NCBI GenBank assembly: GCA_022703255.1
Contig: JAKLDZ010000004.1
Location: forward strand, 1 to 39,120
From: Myxococcota bacterium
GTDB lineage: Bacteria; Myxococcota_A; Polyangia; Polyangiales; Polyangiaceae
Direction: 5' to 3'
DNA: 39,120 nucleotides
Both the position numbers and the translations under genes were made by a program. Under the pieces are notes generated by a model. The model made no database searches. It saw only the letters and a program-made list of their open reading frames with translations, and was not told where the DNA came from. Positions 1,490 through 9,597 of this stretch are shown piece after piece; positions within the stretch are counted from its first letter, which is position 1, and every line of letters begins with the position of its first letter.

Positions 1490-3193
1490 TCAGTCGCGCG
1501 CAGGCCGCGCCCTCAGCAGCTCCTCGGCAGTCTGCAGGGAGGCCTGCGTGATGCGGGCTCCCGACAGCATGCGCGCCACCTCTCGCGTGCGCGCCTTGGC
1601 CGTGAGCCGTCGCACTTGCGAGGTCGCCACCTCGCCGTCCTGTGCCTTCTCCACCACGAAGTGAGCGTCGGCCAGAGCCGCAATCGGCGCCAGATGCGTG
1701 ATGCAGAAGACCTGCCGGTGGCGTGCGATGTCCGCCAGCGCGCGACCGATGCACTCCGCGATCGCCCCCCCCACCCCGGTGTCCACCTCGTCGAATACGT
1801 GCAGCCCCGCGGGCCCGTTCGACGCGAGCACGCGCTTGAGGGCGAGCAGCGCGCGAGACAGTTCGCCACCCGATGCAATCTTCCGGAGCGGACGCGGCGG
1901 GATCCCCTTGTTCGGGGCGATCAGGAACTCCACTCGATCGATCCCGTCGCGAGAGAGCCGCGCCCCGTCCACTGCAAGCGGGTCCCGGGCACCGTCGAGC
2001 GGCGCCACGTCCACCACGACCTTGGCGCTCCCCATGCCGAGTGACGACAGCTCCGCGCCGATCGCCGCGCCGAGACGCCCCGCGGCGTTCTTGCGCTGAT
2101 CGGACAACCGCCGGGCAGCCTCGGCCGCGGACGCCAGCCTGGCGCCGAGCTCTTCGCGCAGCCGCTGCAAATCGTCGTCGGCTCCCTGCAGCTCCTCGAG
2201 CTCCCGGGCGAGTCGCGCGCGCGCTTCGACGGCATCGGATTCGGTCGGGCCGTGCGTGCGCAGAAGTCGCTCGATGCGAAACAGGCGCTCCTCGACCTCG
2301 TCGAGCCGCTGGGGATCGTTCTGGATGTGCTCCACGTGCCGCGTCAGATCGCGCCCGGCCTCCTCGAGCGCGCCGAGCGCGGACTCCACCAGGGCCAGGG
2401 GCTGCCCGAACCAGGGGTCGAGCGAGGCCGAGCTGCCGAGGTCCGCCGCGATGCGACGCAGCTCGTCGCACAGGCTCGGATCGGACTCGGTGAGACGGCC
2501 AGCGGCCGACCGGGCGGCGTCGCCCAGACGAGCCGCGCTGCGCAGGCGGAGTCGCTCGGCCTTGAGCTCCTCCATCTCGCCGGCGCGCGGGGCGACGTCG
2601 TCGAGGTCCGCGAGCTGGAACCGCAGGAACGCATCCCGCTCCGAGCGCGTGCGGAGCCGCTGCTCCAGGGAAGCGACACGGGCGGCGGTCTCGTGGAGCG
2701 AGTCGTAGCAGCTCGCAACCTCGTGCTTGGGGGCGTCGAGACTCCCGAAGGCATCGAGGTAGGCGAGGTGGGTGGCCGGATCGGTGAGGGACACGCTCTC
2801 GTGTTGGGAGGCGATGTCGGCGAGATCGGGCGCGAGGGCGACGAGCTCGGCGGCCGTGCAGAGGCGGCCGTTGAGGTAGGTGCGGGAGCGTCCGGAAGCC
2901 TGGATGACGCGGCGGACGATCAGCTCGGAGCCTGACAGGACGCCGGAAGCTTCGAGGCGGTGCAGGACGGCGGGGGAATCGGAGATGTCGAACAGGGCCT
3001 CGACCTCGGCCTCGTCGGAGCCTGGCCGGATCTGGTCCGGGCTCGCGCGGCCGCCGAGCACGAGGTTCAGGGCTCCGACGATCACGGACTTGCCCGCGCC
3101 GGTTTCTCCGGTGAGGGCATTGAAGCCGGGCTCGAGGGTGATTTCGAGGCGGGACAGCAGCAGCAGGTCGCGAACGCGCAGCTCACAAAGCAT
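1490..3193 (-). CDS. recN: DNA repair protein RecN
   Basis: RecN is an SMC-like ATPase acting in double-strand break repair. The 567-residue protein starting MLCELRVRDL has Walker A (GETGAGKS, about residues 29-36), a long central coiled-coil region, the ABC signature SGGELSR (about 441-447), Walker B in HVFDEVDTGVGG and the H-loop ITH. The reading frame stays open far upstream on this strand, but that extension is low-complexity antisense to the basic-tail gene. The family-typical N-terminus fixes the start at 3193. No Shine-Dalgarno sequence precedes it, and a candidate promoter lies so close that the transcript would have almost no leader. The gene diverges from the pseudo-Fic gene. Confidence 0.96.
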   Translation of the reverse strand: MLCELRVRDLLLLSRLEITLEPGFNALTGETGAGKSVIVGALNLVLGGRASPDQIRPGSDEAEVEALFDISDSPAVLHRLEASGVLSGSELIVRRVIQASGRSRTYLNGRLCTAAELVALAPDLADIASQHESVSLTDPATHLAYLDAFGSLDAPKHEVASCYDSLHETAARVASLEQRLRTRSERDAFLRFQLADLDDVAPRAGEMEELKAERLRLRSAARLGDAARSAAGRLTESDPSLCDELRRIAADLGSSASLDPWFGQPLALVESALGALEEAGRDLTRHVEHIQNDPQRLDEVEERLFRIERLLRTHGPTESDAVEARARLARELEELQGADDDLQRLREELGARLASAAEAARRLSDQRKNAAGRLGAAIGAELSSLGMGSAKVVVDVAPLDGARDPLAVDGARLSRDGIDRVEFLIAPNKGIPPRPLRKIASGGELSRALLALKRVLASNGPAGLHVFDEVDTGVGGAIAECIGRALADIARHRQVFCITHLAPIAALADAHFVVEKAQDGEVATSQVRRLTAKARTREVARMLSGARITQASLQTAEELLRARPARD

Positions 3194-3279: not shown

Positions 3280-3309
3280 TTGACGCGCGAGGTGCCGGGG
3301 AACTAGTGT
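3280..3309 (+). promoter_or_regulatory. Candidate promoter of the pseudo-Fic gene
   Basis: TTGACG (3280-3285) is followed after 18 bases by TAGTGT (3304-3309). Transcription would begin near 3316, downstream of the GTG codon at 3306. That supports the ATG at 3396 as the real start of the gene. Confidence 0.4.
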
Positions 3310-3395
3310 CGCCTCGCGGCGGCGTTGTATCGGCTGATCCGGTCGCCGTCGGAAATACACCGAAGAACACTGGCCTTCCAACCCCGGCATCGTCC

Positions 3396-5168
3396 ATGGC
3401 GGTTCGCAAAGCTCGCAAATCCCCCCCGAAACGACCCACGGCCAAAAAAGCGGCCCGGACCGCAACCAGGTCGAGCAAGCGCCCGAAGCCGGCGCGCGCG
3501 AAGGCCGAGAAGCCGCGCAAGAAGAAGCCCGCGGCGCCTGCGCGCAAGAAGCCCGCGGCGAAGCCGGCCAAGGCCAAGAAGAGCGCTCGCCCGAAGGCCA
3601 AGGCTCCGGTGCGCAAGGCCAAGGCTCCGGTGCGCAAGGCCAAGGCTCCGGTGCGCAAGGCCAAGGCTCCGGTGCGCAAGGCCAAGGCTCCGACGCGCGT
3701 CACGCGGAAGCCGACCCGAGCTCCCGCTCGCGGGAAGAAGCCGCTGGCTGCGCGCAAGCCGCAGCGCCTCGCGGACCTGCGGGAAGAGCGCCGCAAGCGA
3801 CGTCTCGCGGAGAAGGAGTCGCGCCGCGCGCAGAAGCTCAAGGCCGAGAAGCTCAAGGCCGAGAAGAGACTGAAGGCCGAGAGGCTCAAGGCCGAGCAGA
3901 GGCTCAAGGCCGAGAAGAAGCTCAAGGCCGAGAGGATCCTGGCCGAGAAGAGGGTCAGGGCCGAGCGGATCAAGGCCGAGAAGAAAGCCCGGATCGACAG
4001 GATCAAGGCCGAGAAGAAGGCCAAGGTCGAGAAGCTCAAGGCAGACAAGCAGGCCAAGGTCGAGAAGCTCAAGGCCGACAAGCAGCGCGAGGCCGAGAAG
4101 CGCGAGGCCGAACGGCAGCAGGCCACTGCCTCCAAGAAGGCCGAGCAGGCTTCGCGCGAGAAGGACAAGGCCGGACCGTCGTCCCTGCAGCGCCCCTCCC
4201 GTCCGGGCGCCCTGTTGGACCGCAAGTCAACCCCCGGCGCCGCCAAGACACCGTCCGGGAAAACCGCGCCGCCGCCGAAGGGCGGATCGGGTGCACCGCC
4301 GCGCCGCGAGTCGGAACGTCCGACGACGGGCAAGTCGCAGCCCCCCGGTCGGATGCGTGCACCGTTGATGCGCGCGCCCGCGGTCGTGATTCCGAAGGAG
4401 CCGCCGCGACCGCCGATCGAGGAGCGGGCGACCACGGTGGAGAAGCGCCTGCAGGAGCAGCCACCGGAGGTTCTCCGGGAGTACGAGGAGCGGCTGTTCA
4501 TGTCGTGGATCCACCACGACAGCGCGCTGGAAGGTGTGGTGTACACGTTCCAGGAGCTGCAGATGGCCGTGGACCCGGCGATCACGGTGGTGCCGGACTC
4601 CAGCATCCAGCCGATCTGCGACGAGATCCGGCGTCACAAGCAGGCGATCGACTTCGTGCGAGAGCAGGCGAAGCTCAAGGAGCCGGTGAGCGCCGATCTG
4701 GTCAAGCGGATCTACCTGTTGCTGCACCCGGAAGAGGGGGATCTGAAGACGGTCAAGTACCGCAAGGACATCCCGCAGCACCGTCTGTACTTCCACGAGT
4801 ACGCGGCGCCCGACAAGATCGCGTACGGGGTGCGGCAGGTGGTGGAGTGGATCAACGATCCGGAGACGGCGCGGACGCGCGGTGCGCTGCGGATCGCGGC
4901 GCGAGCGCACTACGACTTCATCCGCATCTTCCCCTTCCAGAGCGACAGCGGGAAGGTGGCGCGGCTGCTGATGAACTACGTGCTGATGCTCGCGGGGTTC
5001 CCGCCGGCGATCATCCATTCGACGGAGCGGCAGCGCTACTACGAGGCGTTGAAGGGCTCTCCGTTGGCGATCCTCCACATGGTGACCGAAGCGCTCGAGA
5101 ACTCGGTGGCGAGCATCGAGAAGTTCCTCAACGAGCGCGCGACCCGCGTCCGCTCATTCGTCTCCTGA
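3396..5168 (+). CDS. Histone-H1-like basic tail fused to a degenerate Fic domain
   Basis: The protein has about 590 residues from the ATG at 3396 (MAVRKARKSPPKRP). An in-frame GTG at 3306 would add 30 non-basic residues but lies inside the candidate promoter. Residues 1-120 are Lys/Ala/Pro/Arg-rich like eukaryotic histone H1 tails, with KAKAPVR repeats. Residues 145-245 form a charged LKAEK-type helix with mixed 5- and 6-residue spacing, suggesting a single alpha-helix or coiled coil. A Pro/Ser-rich linker follows. The C-terminal 210 residues resemble Fic proteins: the inhibitory-helix motif SALEG (about 376) and, at about 512-523, FPFQSDSGKVAR followed by LLMNYVLMLAGFPP. Active Fic enzymes have HPFxDGNGR here, so the catalytic His is Phe and the D, G and N are also changed. 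AMP transfer is therefore unlikely. DNA or RNA binding is inferred from charge only. Confidence 0.85.
   Translation: MAVRKARKSPPKRPTAKKAARTATRSSKRPKPARAKAEKPRKKKPAAPARKKPAAKPAKAKKSARPKAKAPVRKAKAPVRKAKAPVRKAKAPVRKAKAPTRVTRKPTRAPARGKKPLAARKPQRLADLREERRKRRLAEKESRRAQKLKAEKLKAEKRLKAERLKAEQRLKAEKKLKAERILAEKRVRAERIKAEKKARIDRIKAEKKAKVEKLKADKQAKVEKLKADKQREAEKREAERQQATASKKAEQASREKDKAGPSSLQRPSRPGALLDRKSTPGAAKTPSGKTAPPPKGGSGAPPRRESERPTTGKSQPPGRMRAPLMRAPAVVIPKEPPRPPIEERATTVEKRLQEQPPEVLREYEERLFMSWIHHDSALEGVVYTFQELQMAVDPAITVVPDSSIQPICDEIRRHKQAIDFVREQAKLKEPVSADLVKRIYLLLHPEEGDLKTVKYRKDIPQHRLYFHEYAAPDKIAYGVRQVVEWINDPETARTRGALRIAARAHYDFIRIFPFQSDSGKVARLLMNYVLMLAGFPPAIIHSTERQRYYEALKGSPLAILHMVTEALENSVASIEKFLNERATRVRSFVS
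3600..3683 (+). repeat. Four perfect 21-bp tandem repeats
   Basis: The unit AAGGCTCCGGTGCGCAAGGC plus C (21 bp) occurs four times without mismatch (3600-3620, 3621-3641, 3642-3662, 3663-3683), with partial copies on both sides. It encodes KAPVRKA in the basic tail. Identity even at third codon positions points to recent expansion by slippage or unequal crossing-over. Confidence 0.95.
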
Positions 5169-5298: not shown

Positions 5299-5523
5299 AT
5301 GGCTCGCAGCGAAATCACCGGTAAGCGCCGCCTCCTGGCGAACAACGTCTCGCACTCGAACATCAAGACCAAGCGTTGGCAGATGGCCAACGTGCAGGAG
5401 CGGAGGCTCTGGGTGCCCGAGCTCAATCGCTTCGTGCGTCTCCACGTGACCACCCGTGACCTGCGCTCCATCGATCGCATGGGCCTGCTGGCGTACGTCA
5501 AGAAGTACGGCCTCCAGGACTAG
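5299..5523 (+). CDS. rpmB: 50S ribosomal protein L28
   Basis: This is a 74-residue basic protein of the large ribosomal subunit. Family features are ITGKRRLLANNVSHSNIKTKRW at the N-terminus (compare VTGKRP...NNRSHA), the central NVQERRLWVPE and RFVRLHVTTRDLRSIDRMG. There are no cysteines, so this is the zinc-free form. The ATG at 5299 follows an AGGA sequence; in-frame codons further upstream add a segment foreign to L28. A strong hairpin follows the stop codon. The gene stands alone here and not next to rpmG or other ribosomal genes. Confidence 0.93.
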   Translation: MARSEITGKRRLLANNVSHSNIKTKRWQMANVQERRLWVPELNRFVRLHVTTRDLRSIDRMGLLAYVKKYGLQD

Positions 5524-7645: not shown

Positions 7646-9550
7646 TCAGAAGGTGCCGGGAGACGCCGGATTGATGTTCCAATTCCAGGCGTCGAGCAGG
7701 ACCAGCGAATCCCACGCGTTGTCAGAGGTGTCCCACAACGCGATGCGGATCGTCATGATCTGCCCGGGAGCCACGTTGCCCACCGTCGCGAGCCAGCCCG
7801 TGCTTCCGCCAAGCAGGTTGCTCGTGCCGCAGCCTCCCACACTCGTGTCGTCGAAGCCCGTCCCCTTCAAGAAGGTCGGCCCGTTGAGACACGGGGCGTA
7901 ACCGTTCACGCCGCCCGAGCAGCCGATCTCGCCCTTCTGGCAGACGCTGAACAGCCCCTGCGCGTCGGGATCCATCGCGAGGTTCACGCCGACCGGAATC
8001 GTCTTCGGAGGATTGGTCACGCGGAACACCGCGAGGTTCTTGTCCGACGGGTTCGGCCACTGCGGAGGCGGCGAGTCCACCAGCACCACGTAGAAGTCGT
8101 TGAACTGCGTGCAGACGTACTCCGGGAACTCCGCCGAGAAGAACCACGACAGCAGCGAGAACGACTTCGCGTTCGTCGGGACCCGAATCCGCAACGTGAG
8201 CATCACCGAGTCGTTGGCCGTCGTTCCGCTCGGCTCGGGACACCCAGGAGCGTTCGGCAACTGGTAGTTGTGCGCCGCGAACCAGTCCGCCGGGAAGCTG
8301 CTGCTCGTTCCAATCGTCGCGCCCGGCTGGAAGATCGAATACGACGGGTTCGTCTGGTTCACCGAAGCGGCATTGCCCGAAGACAACACCGCGAGACGCC
8401 CTCCGCGGTAGGGCGTGATCGCATCGCCGAATCCGGATCGCACCGATCGGCTCACACTCGCCGCCGCCGGCAACAGCGTCTTGCCATCCGCCAGCGTCAA
8501 CCGCCCGTCGATCACTCCCCACTTGCGCGTCGGCAGCGGCTCGTACTCCTTCGTCAGCTGACACAGCTCCATCGCCCGCGCGTAGTCGAGCGGGTCCGAC
8601 GTGTTCGAGTTGTTGATGAAGCCGTCGCAGTTCGCCGTGACGTTGTCGGTCGCGCCGTCGCAGTCGTCATCGACGCTGTTGCCGATGTGCTCGTAGGCGC
8701 CCGGGTTGACGAGCTTCGGCTCCGTCGAGCATGCCCCCGGTGAGTCGCAGCAGTCACCGGTCGTGACCGTCCACCCGTCGGCGTCGCAGTCGTCGGTGGG
8801 GCCACCGACGCAGACCGGCGAACCGCCGGCGCCGGCCATGCCTCCGGACCCGCCGACGCCACCCGTACCTCCTGCGCCCGCGCTACCGCCGTAGCCCGCG
8901 CCACCGCCGTAGCCACCCCAGCCGCCGGTGCCGCCAGCGCCCGCGCTGCCGCCGTAGCCACCCCAACCGCCGGTGCCGCCAGCGCCCGCGCTGCCGCCGT
9001 AGCCACCCCAACCGCCGGTGCCGCCCGTGCCCGCGCCGCCGCCGAAGCCGCCCCAACCGCCGGTGCCGCCAGCGCCCGCGCTGCCGCCGAAGCCGCCCCA
9101 ACCACCGGATCCGCCCGTGCCTCCTACGCAGGTCCCCGGGGAGTCCGGGATTCCGCAAATCGCGCCGCACGGACACACCCAAGCGCCCGCGCACATCTGA
9201 CCGTAGGCACACTCGTCGTCGTGCCAGCAGTAGCCGGGCACGTGGGTCTTGCAGACGTTGTTGACGCAGTGATTCGGGCCACCGCCGCACGAGGCGTCGG
9301 TCGTGCAGCACGTCGGCGCGCCACCGGTTCCACCGCCCCAGCCGCCGGTGCCGCTGTAGCCACCGGCTCCCCCCTTGCCCGAAGCACCGCCCTTGCCACC
9401 AATGCCGGAATCCGGCTTTGTGCCACCTTGGCCCAACAGCGAGGGGTCGAGGTCATCCCATTCGACTTCGGATCGTCCACAGGACGCATTGGAGAGGGCG
9501 AGTAGGGCAACGGATCCGACGAAGAAAACGAGGGCTTTGGGCTGACGCAT
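7646..9550 (-). CDS. Gly-rich surface lipoprotein with MopE-like and choice-of-anchor L domains
   Basis: The 634-residue product starts MRQPKALVFF after a strong GGAGGT ribosome site. A signal peptide ends in a lipobox-like NASC (Cys at about 24), so outer-membrane or surface anchoring is likely. A Cys-rich region (80-141) is followed by a Gly/Trp/Tyr/Ala repeat (about 143-245; 15-residue unit GGTGGWGGYGGSAGA). Next comes a segment with DCDADGW...DCCDSPG and GNSVDDDCDGATDN, the calcium/metal-binding motif seen in MopE-like proteins. The C-terminal 260 residues carry FSAEFPEYVCTQFNDFYVVLVD and GTGFDDTSVGGCG, typical of choice-of-anchor L domains of secreted proteins. The function is unknown; adhesion or matrix binding is a guess. 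Confidence 0.88.
   Translation of the reverse strand: MRQPKALVFFVGSVALLALSNASCGRSEVEWDDLDPSLLGQGGTKPDSGIGGKGGASGKGGAGGYSGTGGWGGGTGGAPTCCTTDASCGGGPNHCVNNVCKTHVPGYCWHDDECAYGQMCAGAWVCPCGAICGIPDSPGTCVGGTGGSGGWGGFGGSAGAGGTGGWGGFGGGAGTGGTGGWGGYGGSAGAGGTGGWGGYGGSAGAGGTGGWGGYGGGAGYGGSAGAGGTGGVGGSGGMAGAGGSPVCVGGPTDDCDADGWTVTTGDCCDSPGACSTEPKLVNPGAYEHIGNSVDDDCDGATDNVTANCDGFINNSNTSDPLDYARAMELCQLTKEYEPLPTRKWGVIDGRLTLADGKTLLPAAASVSRSVRSGFGDAITPYRGGRLAVLSSGNAASVNQTNPSYSIFQPGATIGTSSSFPADWFAAHNYQLPNAPGCPEPSGTTANDSVMLTLRIRVPTNAKSFSLLSWFFSAEFPEYVCTQFNDFYVVLVDSPPPQWPNPSDKNLAVFRVTNPPKTIPVGVNLAMDPDAQGLFSVCQKGEIGCSGGVNGYAPCLNGPTFLKGTGFDDTSVGGCGTSNLLGGSTGWLATVGNVAPGQIMTIRIALWDTSDNAWDSLVLLDAWNWNINPASPGTF
8911..9120 (-). 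repeat. 45-bp tandem repeat encoding GGTGGWGG[YF]GGSAGA
   Basis: About 4.7 imperfect copies begin at 8911, 8956, 9001, 9046 and 9091. The copies at 8911 and 8956 differ by a single base; later ones swap TAG/GAA at the Tyr/Phe codon and vary in the SAGA/GAGT part. Copy number is likely to vary among strains. Confidence 0.9.
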
Positions 9551-9597
9551 CGAGCGACCTCCAGGAGAAACGGGCCCCGGCAGTGGCACAGGCGCAG

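Follow-up and report, generated by a model that had tools for sequence, protein, structure and literature searches.

The window, i.e. the whole stretch of 39,120 nucleotides of a Myxococcota bacterium that was analysed, contains a gene for a protein with a degenerate Fic domain, hereafter called pseudo-Fic, flanked by a recN-like gene and by rpmB (Table 1). The three parts described in the initial annotation, a Lys/Ala/Pro-rich tail, a charged stretch and a Fic domain, are all present in its reading frame. Likewise, the tail has the composition stated there, residues 1-328 consisting of 21% K, 15% R, 19% A and 11% P with a net charge of +88. If begun at GTG, the same open reading frame would span positions 3306-5168. 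This start is disfavoured by the N-termini of orthologues (MAARKARK... or MAAKKTRK...), which lie at the position matching ATG 3396, and by the third-position G+C content, which amounts to 0.87-0.93 downstream of ATG 3396 vs. 0.60 in 3306-3395. For these reasons the ATG was taken as the likelier start and the protein as 590 aa long. In the residue numbering used below (for instance E51), counting starts at window position 4380; adding 328 yields the number in the whole protein. Elsewhere in the window, a Gly-rich repeat protein (GGTGGWGGYGGSAGA...) with a weak match to the MopE metal-binding motif is encoded on the minus strand at 7646-9589.

Table 1. Positions of the pseudo-Fic gene, its protein segments and its neighbours in the window
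Feature	Position	Strand	Remarks
recN-like gene, divergent neighbour	1490..3193	-	Not part of the pseudo-Fic protein
Pseudo-Fic protein gene	3396..5168	+	590 aa from ATG 3396; same-frame GTG 3306 less likely start
Tail part 1, aa 1-120	3396..3755	+	K/A/P/R-rich, histone-H1-like composition, APVRKAK repeats; net charge +49
Tail part 2, aa 121-245	3756..4130	+	Charged K/E/R/A stretch (KLKAEKLKAEK...), net charge +26; putative helix, helix-like by composition only
Pro/Gly-rich linker, aa 246 to about 338	4131..4409	+	
Conserved FICD-like domain	4410..5159	+	Orthologue profile match; AlphaFold2 model pLDDT 94.8
Inhibitory-helix motif DSALEG	4518..4535	+	Glu retained, Asp at Ser/Thr position; orthologue alignment
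PF02661 (Fic) match	4686..4985	+	Profile match
Flap-region segment PQHRLYFH	4773..4796	+	P, H, R, Y, H invariant in 113 class-level sequences; alignment and model
Degenerate Fic motif FPFQSDSGKVAR	4929..4964	+	Canonical HPFx(D/E)GNGRxxR; second Arg invariant
C-terminal RSFVS	5151..5165	+	
rpmB (ribosomal protein L28), downstream neighbour	5299..5523	+	Starts 131 bases downstream

The assignment to the Fic family made in the initial annotation held in profile searches as well as in structure prediction. PF02661 matched the window protein at 6e-10, above the curated cut-off, and was matched by all 74 aligned orthologues (E <= 0.001); the ten members tested from the class level and from other classes all exceeded the cut-off as well. 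Besides PF02661, a Pfam search of the window protein at E <= 1 returned nothing, and no histone or nucleoid-protein family, and NCBIfam gave only weak matches below cut-off (XopAC, mob_myst_B). At the sequence level, the solved structures matched were FICD and other class II Fic proteins (1e-17 to 1e-14). The AlphaFold2 model, built from the alignment of the 74 orthologues, reached a pTM of 0.91, and the top PDB matches found with Foldseek were BT_2513 (3cuc) and FICD (2e-10). Aligned to human FICD with VIA-align, the model gave Z 26.4 and 2.6 A over 241 residues (FICD 193-442). For L209, a member belonging to a different class, a second AlphaFold2 model had a pLDDT of 95.0, and again FICD was the best relative (Z 29.7). 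Since models from two lineages produced FICD-type matches, the pseudo-Fic domain is predicted to have a class II (FICD-like) Fic fold. The whole-domain fold is common to the class II AMPylases human FICD/HYPE, C. elegans FIC-1 and BT_2513 (Z 25 to 30), whereas the N-terminal part of FICD is not shared, the matches covering FICD residues 179/193-442 only. According to DSSP, the flap region has no strand of at least three residues in either of these two models, which is at most a hint that the beta-hairpin flap for target docking may be lacking.

The motif positions were compared in 134 aligned orthologues, comprising 87 sequences from the order, 26 from the remainder of the class and 21 from other classes; the order and class sequences together form the class-level set of 113. 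The AMPylase motif HxFx(D/E)GNGRxxR is absent from the window protein, which reads FPFQSDSGKVAR. At the position of the catalytic His, F, Y or W is found in 131 of the 134 orthologues, the others having one H, one S and one L. With 133 of 134 orthologues devoid of the His, the His-to-Phe exchange is not a single aberrant case, and a lone mutant or a sequencing error was ruled out. The only orthologue with a His at this position (L079 in genome G077) reads IHPFARHSGK and still lacks the acid and the Asn. The catalytic Asn occurs in one orthologue (1/134). In the order, the position of the Mg-binding acid is mostly occupied by K, T, S, R, N, H or Q, and D or E is found in a minority of class and other-class sequences. 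The first motif Arg is replaced by Lys in the order and elsewhere often by an aliphatic residue or Thr.

Other parts of the class II architecture have been kept. Like the class II AMPylases, pseudo-Fic has an N-terminal inhibitory helix with a Glu, and the second motif Arg, the partner of this Glu, is also there. The Arg (R195) was found in 134/134 orthologues, and the position of the inhibitory Glu (E51) holds Glu in 131 and Asp in three of them. In FICD, the inhibitory Glu binds the second motif Arg and blocks ATP (PMC6826200; PMC3667792). As both residues are present in pseudo-Fics, they would be expected to pair as in the FICD literature. The initial annotation had regarded the inhibitory SALEG motif as kept. 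This was half right: the Glu is retained, but class II Fic proteins have [S/T]xxxE[G/N] as their inhibitory motif, with the Ser/Thr four residues before the Glu, and the Ser taken for it lies three residues before. The actual slot is occupied by Asp in the window protein (D-S-A-L-E-G), and by Asp (128/134) or Glu (6/134) throughout the orthologues. Pseudo-Fic is thus unlike the class II AMPylases in that the catalytic His, the Mg-binding acid, the Asn and the first Arg are replaced and the inhibitory Ser/Thr is exchanged for Asp or Glu. The motif table and the predicted structure together bear out the earlier description of a Fic fold stripped of its AMPylation residues. Judged by its motif, pseudo-Fic is a member of the Fic fold family and not an AMPylase, and its domain very probably carries out no AMPylation.

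Loss of AMPylation could leave room for another reaction. Most residues of the pocket (D47, E51, H134, R135, Y137, H139, R195, R217, Y220) are invariant in the 113 class-level sequences, and the pocket might have been remodelled to catalyse a different transfer or a hydrolysis. Fic folds host other transfers, and SelO is a precedent of a presumed pseudoenzyme with another activity. Work of this kind is cited in PMC12409994. Against a new enzymatic activity, several other-class lineages have lost H134, R135 and H139 while the rest of the family pattern persists in them, and neither Pfam nor NCBIfam recognised a metal- or nucleotide-binding motif. We regard this possibility as unlikely on the whole. 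The highly conserved polar residues H134, R135, Y137, H139, E51 and R217 could equally form a new active site.

The initial annotation had also suggested that the domain senses a nucleotide, and this proposal found no support. In the phosphate nest, the Asn, the first Arg and the Mg-binding acid have been replaced, by residues that differ from lineage to lineage, and the position of the adenine-contacting Asn is not constant among orthologues either. A turnover-free sensor of a nucleotide or phosphate ligand that uses the former anion nest ([S/T]-G-K, where the helix begins) would agree with the strong conservation of S-G-K in the order (S in 83, G in 87 and K in 79 of 87 sequences) and with the binding of an ATP analogue by BepC despite its altered motif (PMC7842960). 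In the other classes, however, almost every sequence has T, V, I, A, M or L in place of the Lys, and the Ser is often replaced by Pro; moreover, the retained inhibitory Glu is a competitor of the gamma-phosphate. A sensor therefore appears improbable.

The altered gene is almost universal in its class. Among the nearest relatives, from the same family and order, 89 of 97 genomes had a match, and in the GTDB class a match was encoded in 235 of 241 genomes, mostly as a single copy; when only class genomes with a completeness of 90% or more and a contamination of 5% or less were counted, the ratio was 154/157. The gene has even been kept in a 1.6 Mb genome rated 98% complete, and the named carriers include Sorangium, Polyangium, Minicystis and Labilithrix. 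A second, more divergent tier of matches (E 1e-54 to 1e-25) was found in other classes of the phylum. With the altered gene so widespread, pseudo-Fic is a long-established and conserved pseudoenzyme and no isolated mutant. In a tree of 86 domains, pseudo-Fics were separated from eight canonical Fic domains at 100/99 support, the sampling of canonical sequences being limited, and in this sampled tree the dead Fic clade has one origin. Plasmids of Bacillota and Pseudomonadota encode canonical class II relatives with the motif IHPFxDGNGR, three of the four read also having AIEGN. Because HPFxDGNGR is retained by the canonical class II relatives in other phyla, the loss of the motif belongs to the pseudo-Fic lineage. 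An ordinary Fic gene with the motif HPYLDGNGR is encoded in the genome of the window as well (L001, G000:C494).

Seven close pairs had dN/dS ratios between about 0.02 and about 0.27, and an eighth pair had no amino-acid change; by this codon-level comparison, the pseudo-Fic gene is under purifying selection. A pseudogene was ruled out by these ratios together with the breadth of occurrence. A viral or mobile origin was rejected too, the plasmid matches having less than 60% identity and the four read being canonical in their motif. No relative of pseudo-Fic was found on viral contigs, and the viral structure matches were other Fic proteins. Many bacterial Fic proteins are toxins (PMC2701414), and pseudo-Fic might accordingly be pictured as a decaying toxin or a relic of a toxin-antitoxin pair. 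This is contradicted by near-universality, single copy number and purifying selection, and no conserved small neighbour gene was seen at the mapped loci; we consider such an origin highly implausible.

The gene neighbourhood differs between the lineages. The position next to rpmB and divergent from recN, pointed out in the initial annotation, is true for the window locus and not conserved across the group. rpmB adjoins the pseudo-Fic gene only in the four nearest genomes, and an operon link was dismissed for this reason. Similarly, recN is a neighbour at 15 of 113 mapped loci, every one of them from the part of the order to which the window belongs and within part of its family, and a recN link was rejected. 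In other orders of the class, the pseudo-Fic gene is located upstream of mraW and faces away from it, at less than 1 kb in 25 genomes and at 6-13 kb in seven more, always in the same divergent orientation, and in many of these genomes ftsI follows beyond mraW. ribA, which encodes GTP cyclohydrolase II, is located 3' of pseudo-Fic, no more than about 600 bases away and on the same strand, in 12 genomes (f18 and f31 of the class, f39 and f67 of other classes), so that this gene order is shared by two distant groups of the phylum. The mraW-side and ribA neighbours co-occur in four genomes (G102, G118, G126 and G134). The shared gene order speaks for orthology across the classes and for a long-standing site close to the division and cell-wall cluster.

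MraZ was present in 31 of 78 class genomes, and it gave no match in the tested genomes (in the range G097-G164) where pseudo-Fic directly abuts mraW; there, pseudo-Fic appears as if it occupied the MraZ slot. In one further genome (G101:C133), mraZ sits between pseudo-Fic and mraW. Judging by its position, the gene may serve in the cell envelope, in division or in other housekeeping; the neighbourhood is a functional hint and not functional evidence.

The distribution of the basic tail is far narrower than that of the domain. A K/A/P/R-rich stretch of 60 residues upstream of the domain was detected in 28 of the 87 order-level orthologues (the window protein and 27 others), all from the window's family, and its length and sequence vary freely among them. 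On the tree, several gains or losses are needed to explain its presence. The idea that the histone-like tail belongs to the core function was weakened by these results: confined to part of one family and missing in the greater part of the class, the tail is better described as an add-on which, by this pattern of occurrence, is recent in origin. One could still place the function in the tail and see in pseudo-Fic a nucleoid or ribosome protein that carries a dead Fic domain incidentally, as the high net charge and the recurrence of such tails in 27 further orthologues might suggest. Yet the rest of the order set does without the tail, whereas the Fic domain is conserved everywhere, and we find this account hard to credit.

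The likeness of the tail to histone H1 is one of composition only, and we would give roughly even odds to its serving as a nucleic-acid tether (DNA or RNA) in the tailed members. Among neighbouring open reading frames, such tails were uncommon, being seen in three non-Fic frames, including two endonuclease III genes, vs. 22 Fic genes. At three loci (L097, L099 and L101), an endonuclease III gene beside pseudo-Fic bears a similar K/A/P-rich extension. At the other end of the protein, termini of the RxF[VI]S type recur in about 20 order-level orthologues, and the RxF[VI]S-COOH end is perhaps a docking or sorting signal.

Fic or Fic-like proteins with altered motifs have been described in other systems. 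In the work of Goepfert et al. (PMC3667792), Fic proteins with degenerate motifs or without the flap were considered likely to have new functions. The Fic domain of BepC of Bartonella acts without catalysis (PMC7842960), and like pseudo-Fic, as read here, BepC has a non-canonical Fic motif and works by protein-protein interaction. However, in BepC (HxFxKGNGRxxR) a single motif position differs, while the His, the Asn and all Gly and Arg residues of the motif (two each) are retained; furthermore, BepC is a secreted effector aimed at the host, whereas pseudo-Fic belongs to the chromosomal core genes of its class. AvrB shares a Fic-like (Fido) fold without the catalytic motif (PMC4454073, PMC7842960), but it is an effector of a plant pathogen, and the likeness considered here is that of the fold. 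Doc clade D2 is also a conserved clade in which the catalytic His is replaced, here by Gln (PMC4454073); its motif Qx[FY]x[DE][GV]NKR retains the acid and the Asn, and it is of the Doc type, not class II. No account of a dead or pseudo Fic protein in myxobacteria, nor of a pseudo-Fic family, was found in the literature searched.

We propose, with a probability of roughly 0.55, that pseudo-Fic is an ancient, vertically inherited class II pseudo-AMPylase, encoded by a core gene of the class, which acts as a locked, non-catalytic protein-binding scaffold. The aromatic residue would fill the seat of the catalytic His, and a network of acidic residues and Arg would lock the domain, a state suggested by the residue identities in analogy to FICD. 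The locked domain may then offer a fixed surface for protein binding without catalysis, and in part of the family the later-added basic tail and charged stretch would tether this scaffold to DNA or RNA. A scaffold is the default reading for any pseudoenzyme.

A more far-reaching and distinctly speculative version of the scaffold reading takes the gene position into account. The myxobacterial core pseudo-AMPylase might act without catalysis on division or envelope synthesis, heading the dcw cluster in the place of mraZ in several families and being tethered to the nucleoid by the added tail in one. If true, this would be, to our knowledge, the first Fic-fold protein with a conserved housekeeping role independent of catalysis. 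Fic proteins are known almost entirely as enzymes. The clear non-catalytic case in the literature found, BepC, is a pathogen effector, whereas pseudo-Fic is a class-wide single-copy core gene. Orthologues are probably present in culturable, genetically tractable myxobacteria, in which the role of a dead AMPylase would be directly testable. The class-wide exchange of the catalytic His for an aromatic residue, with the autoinhibitory ion pair kept, would show that the Fic fold was put to use in ordinary cellular functions at an early time.
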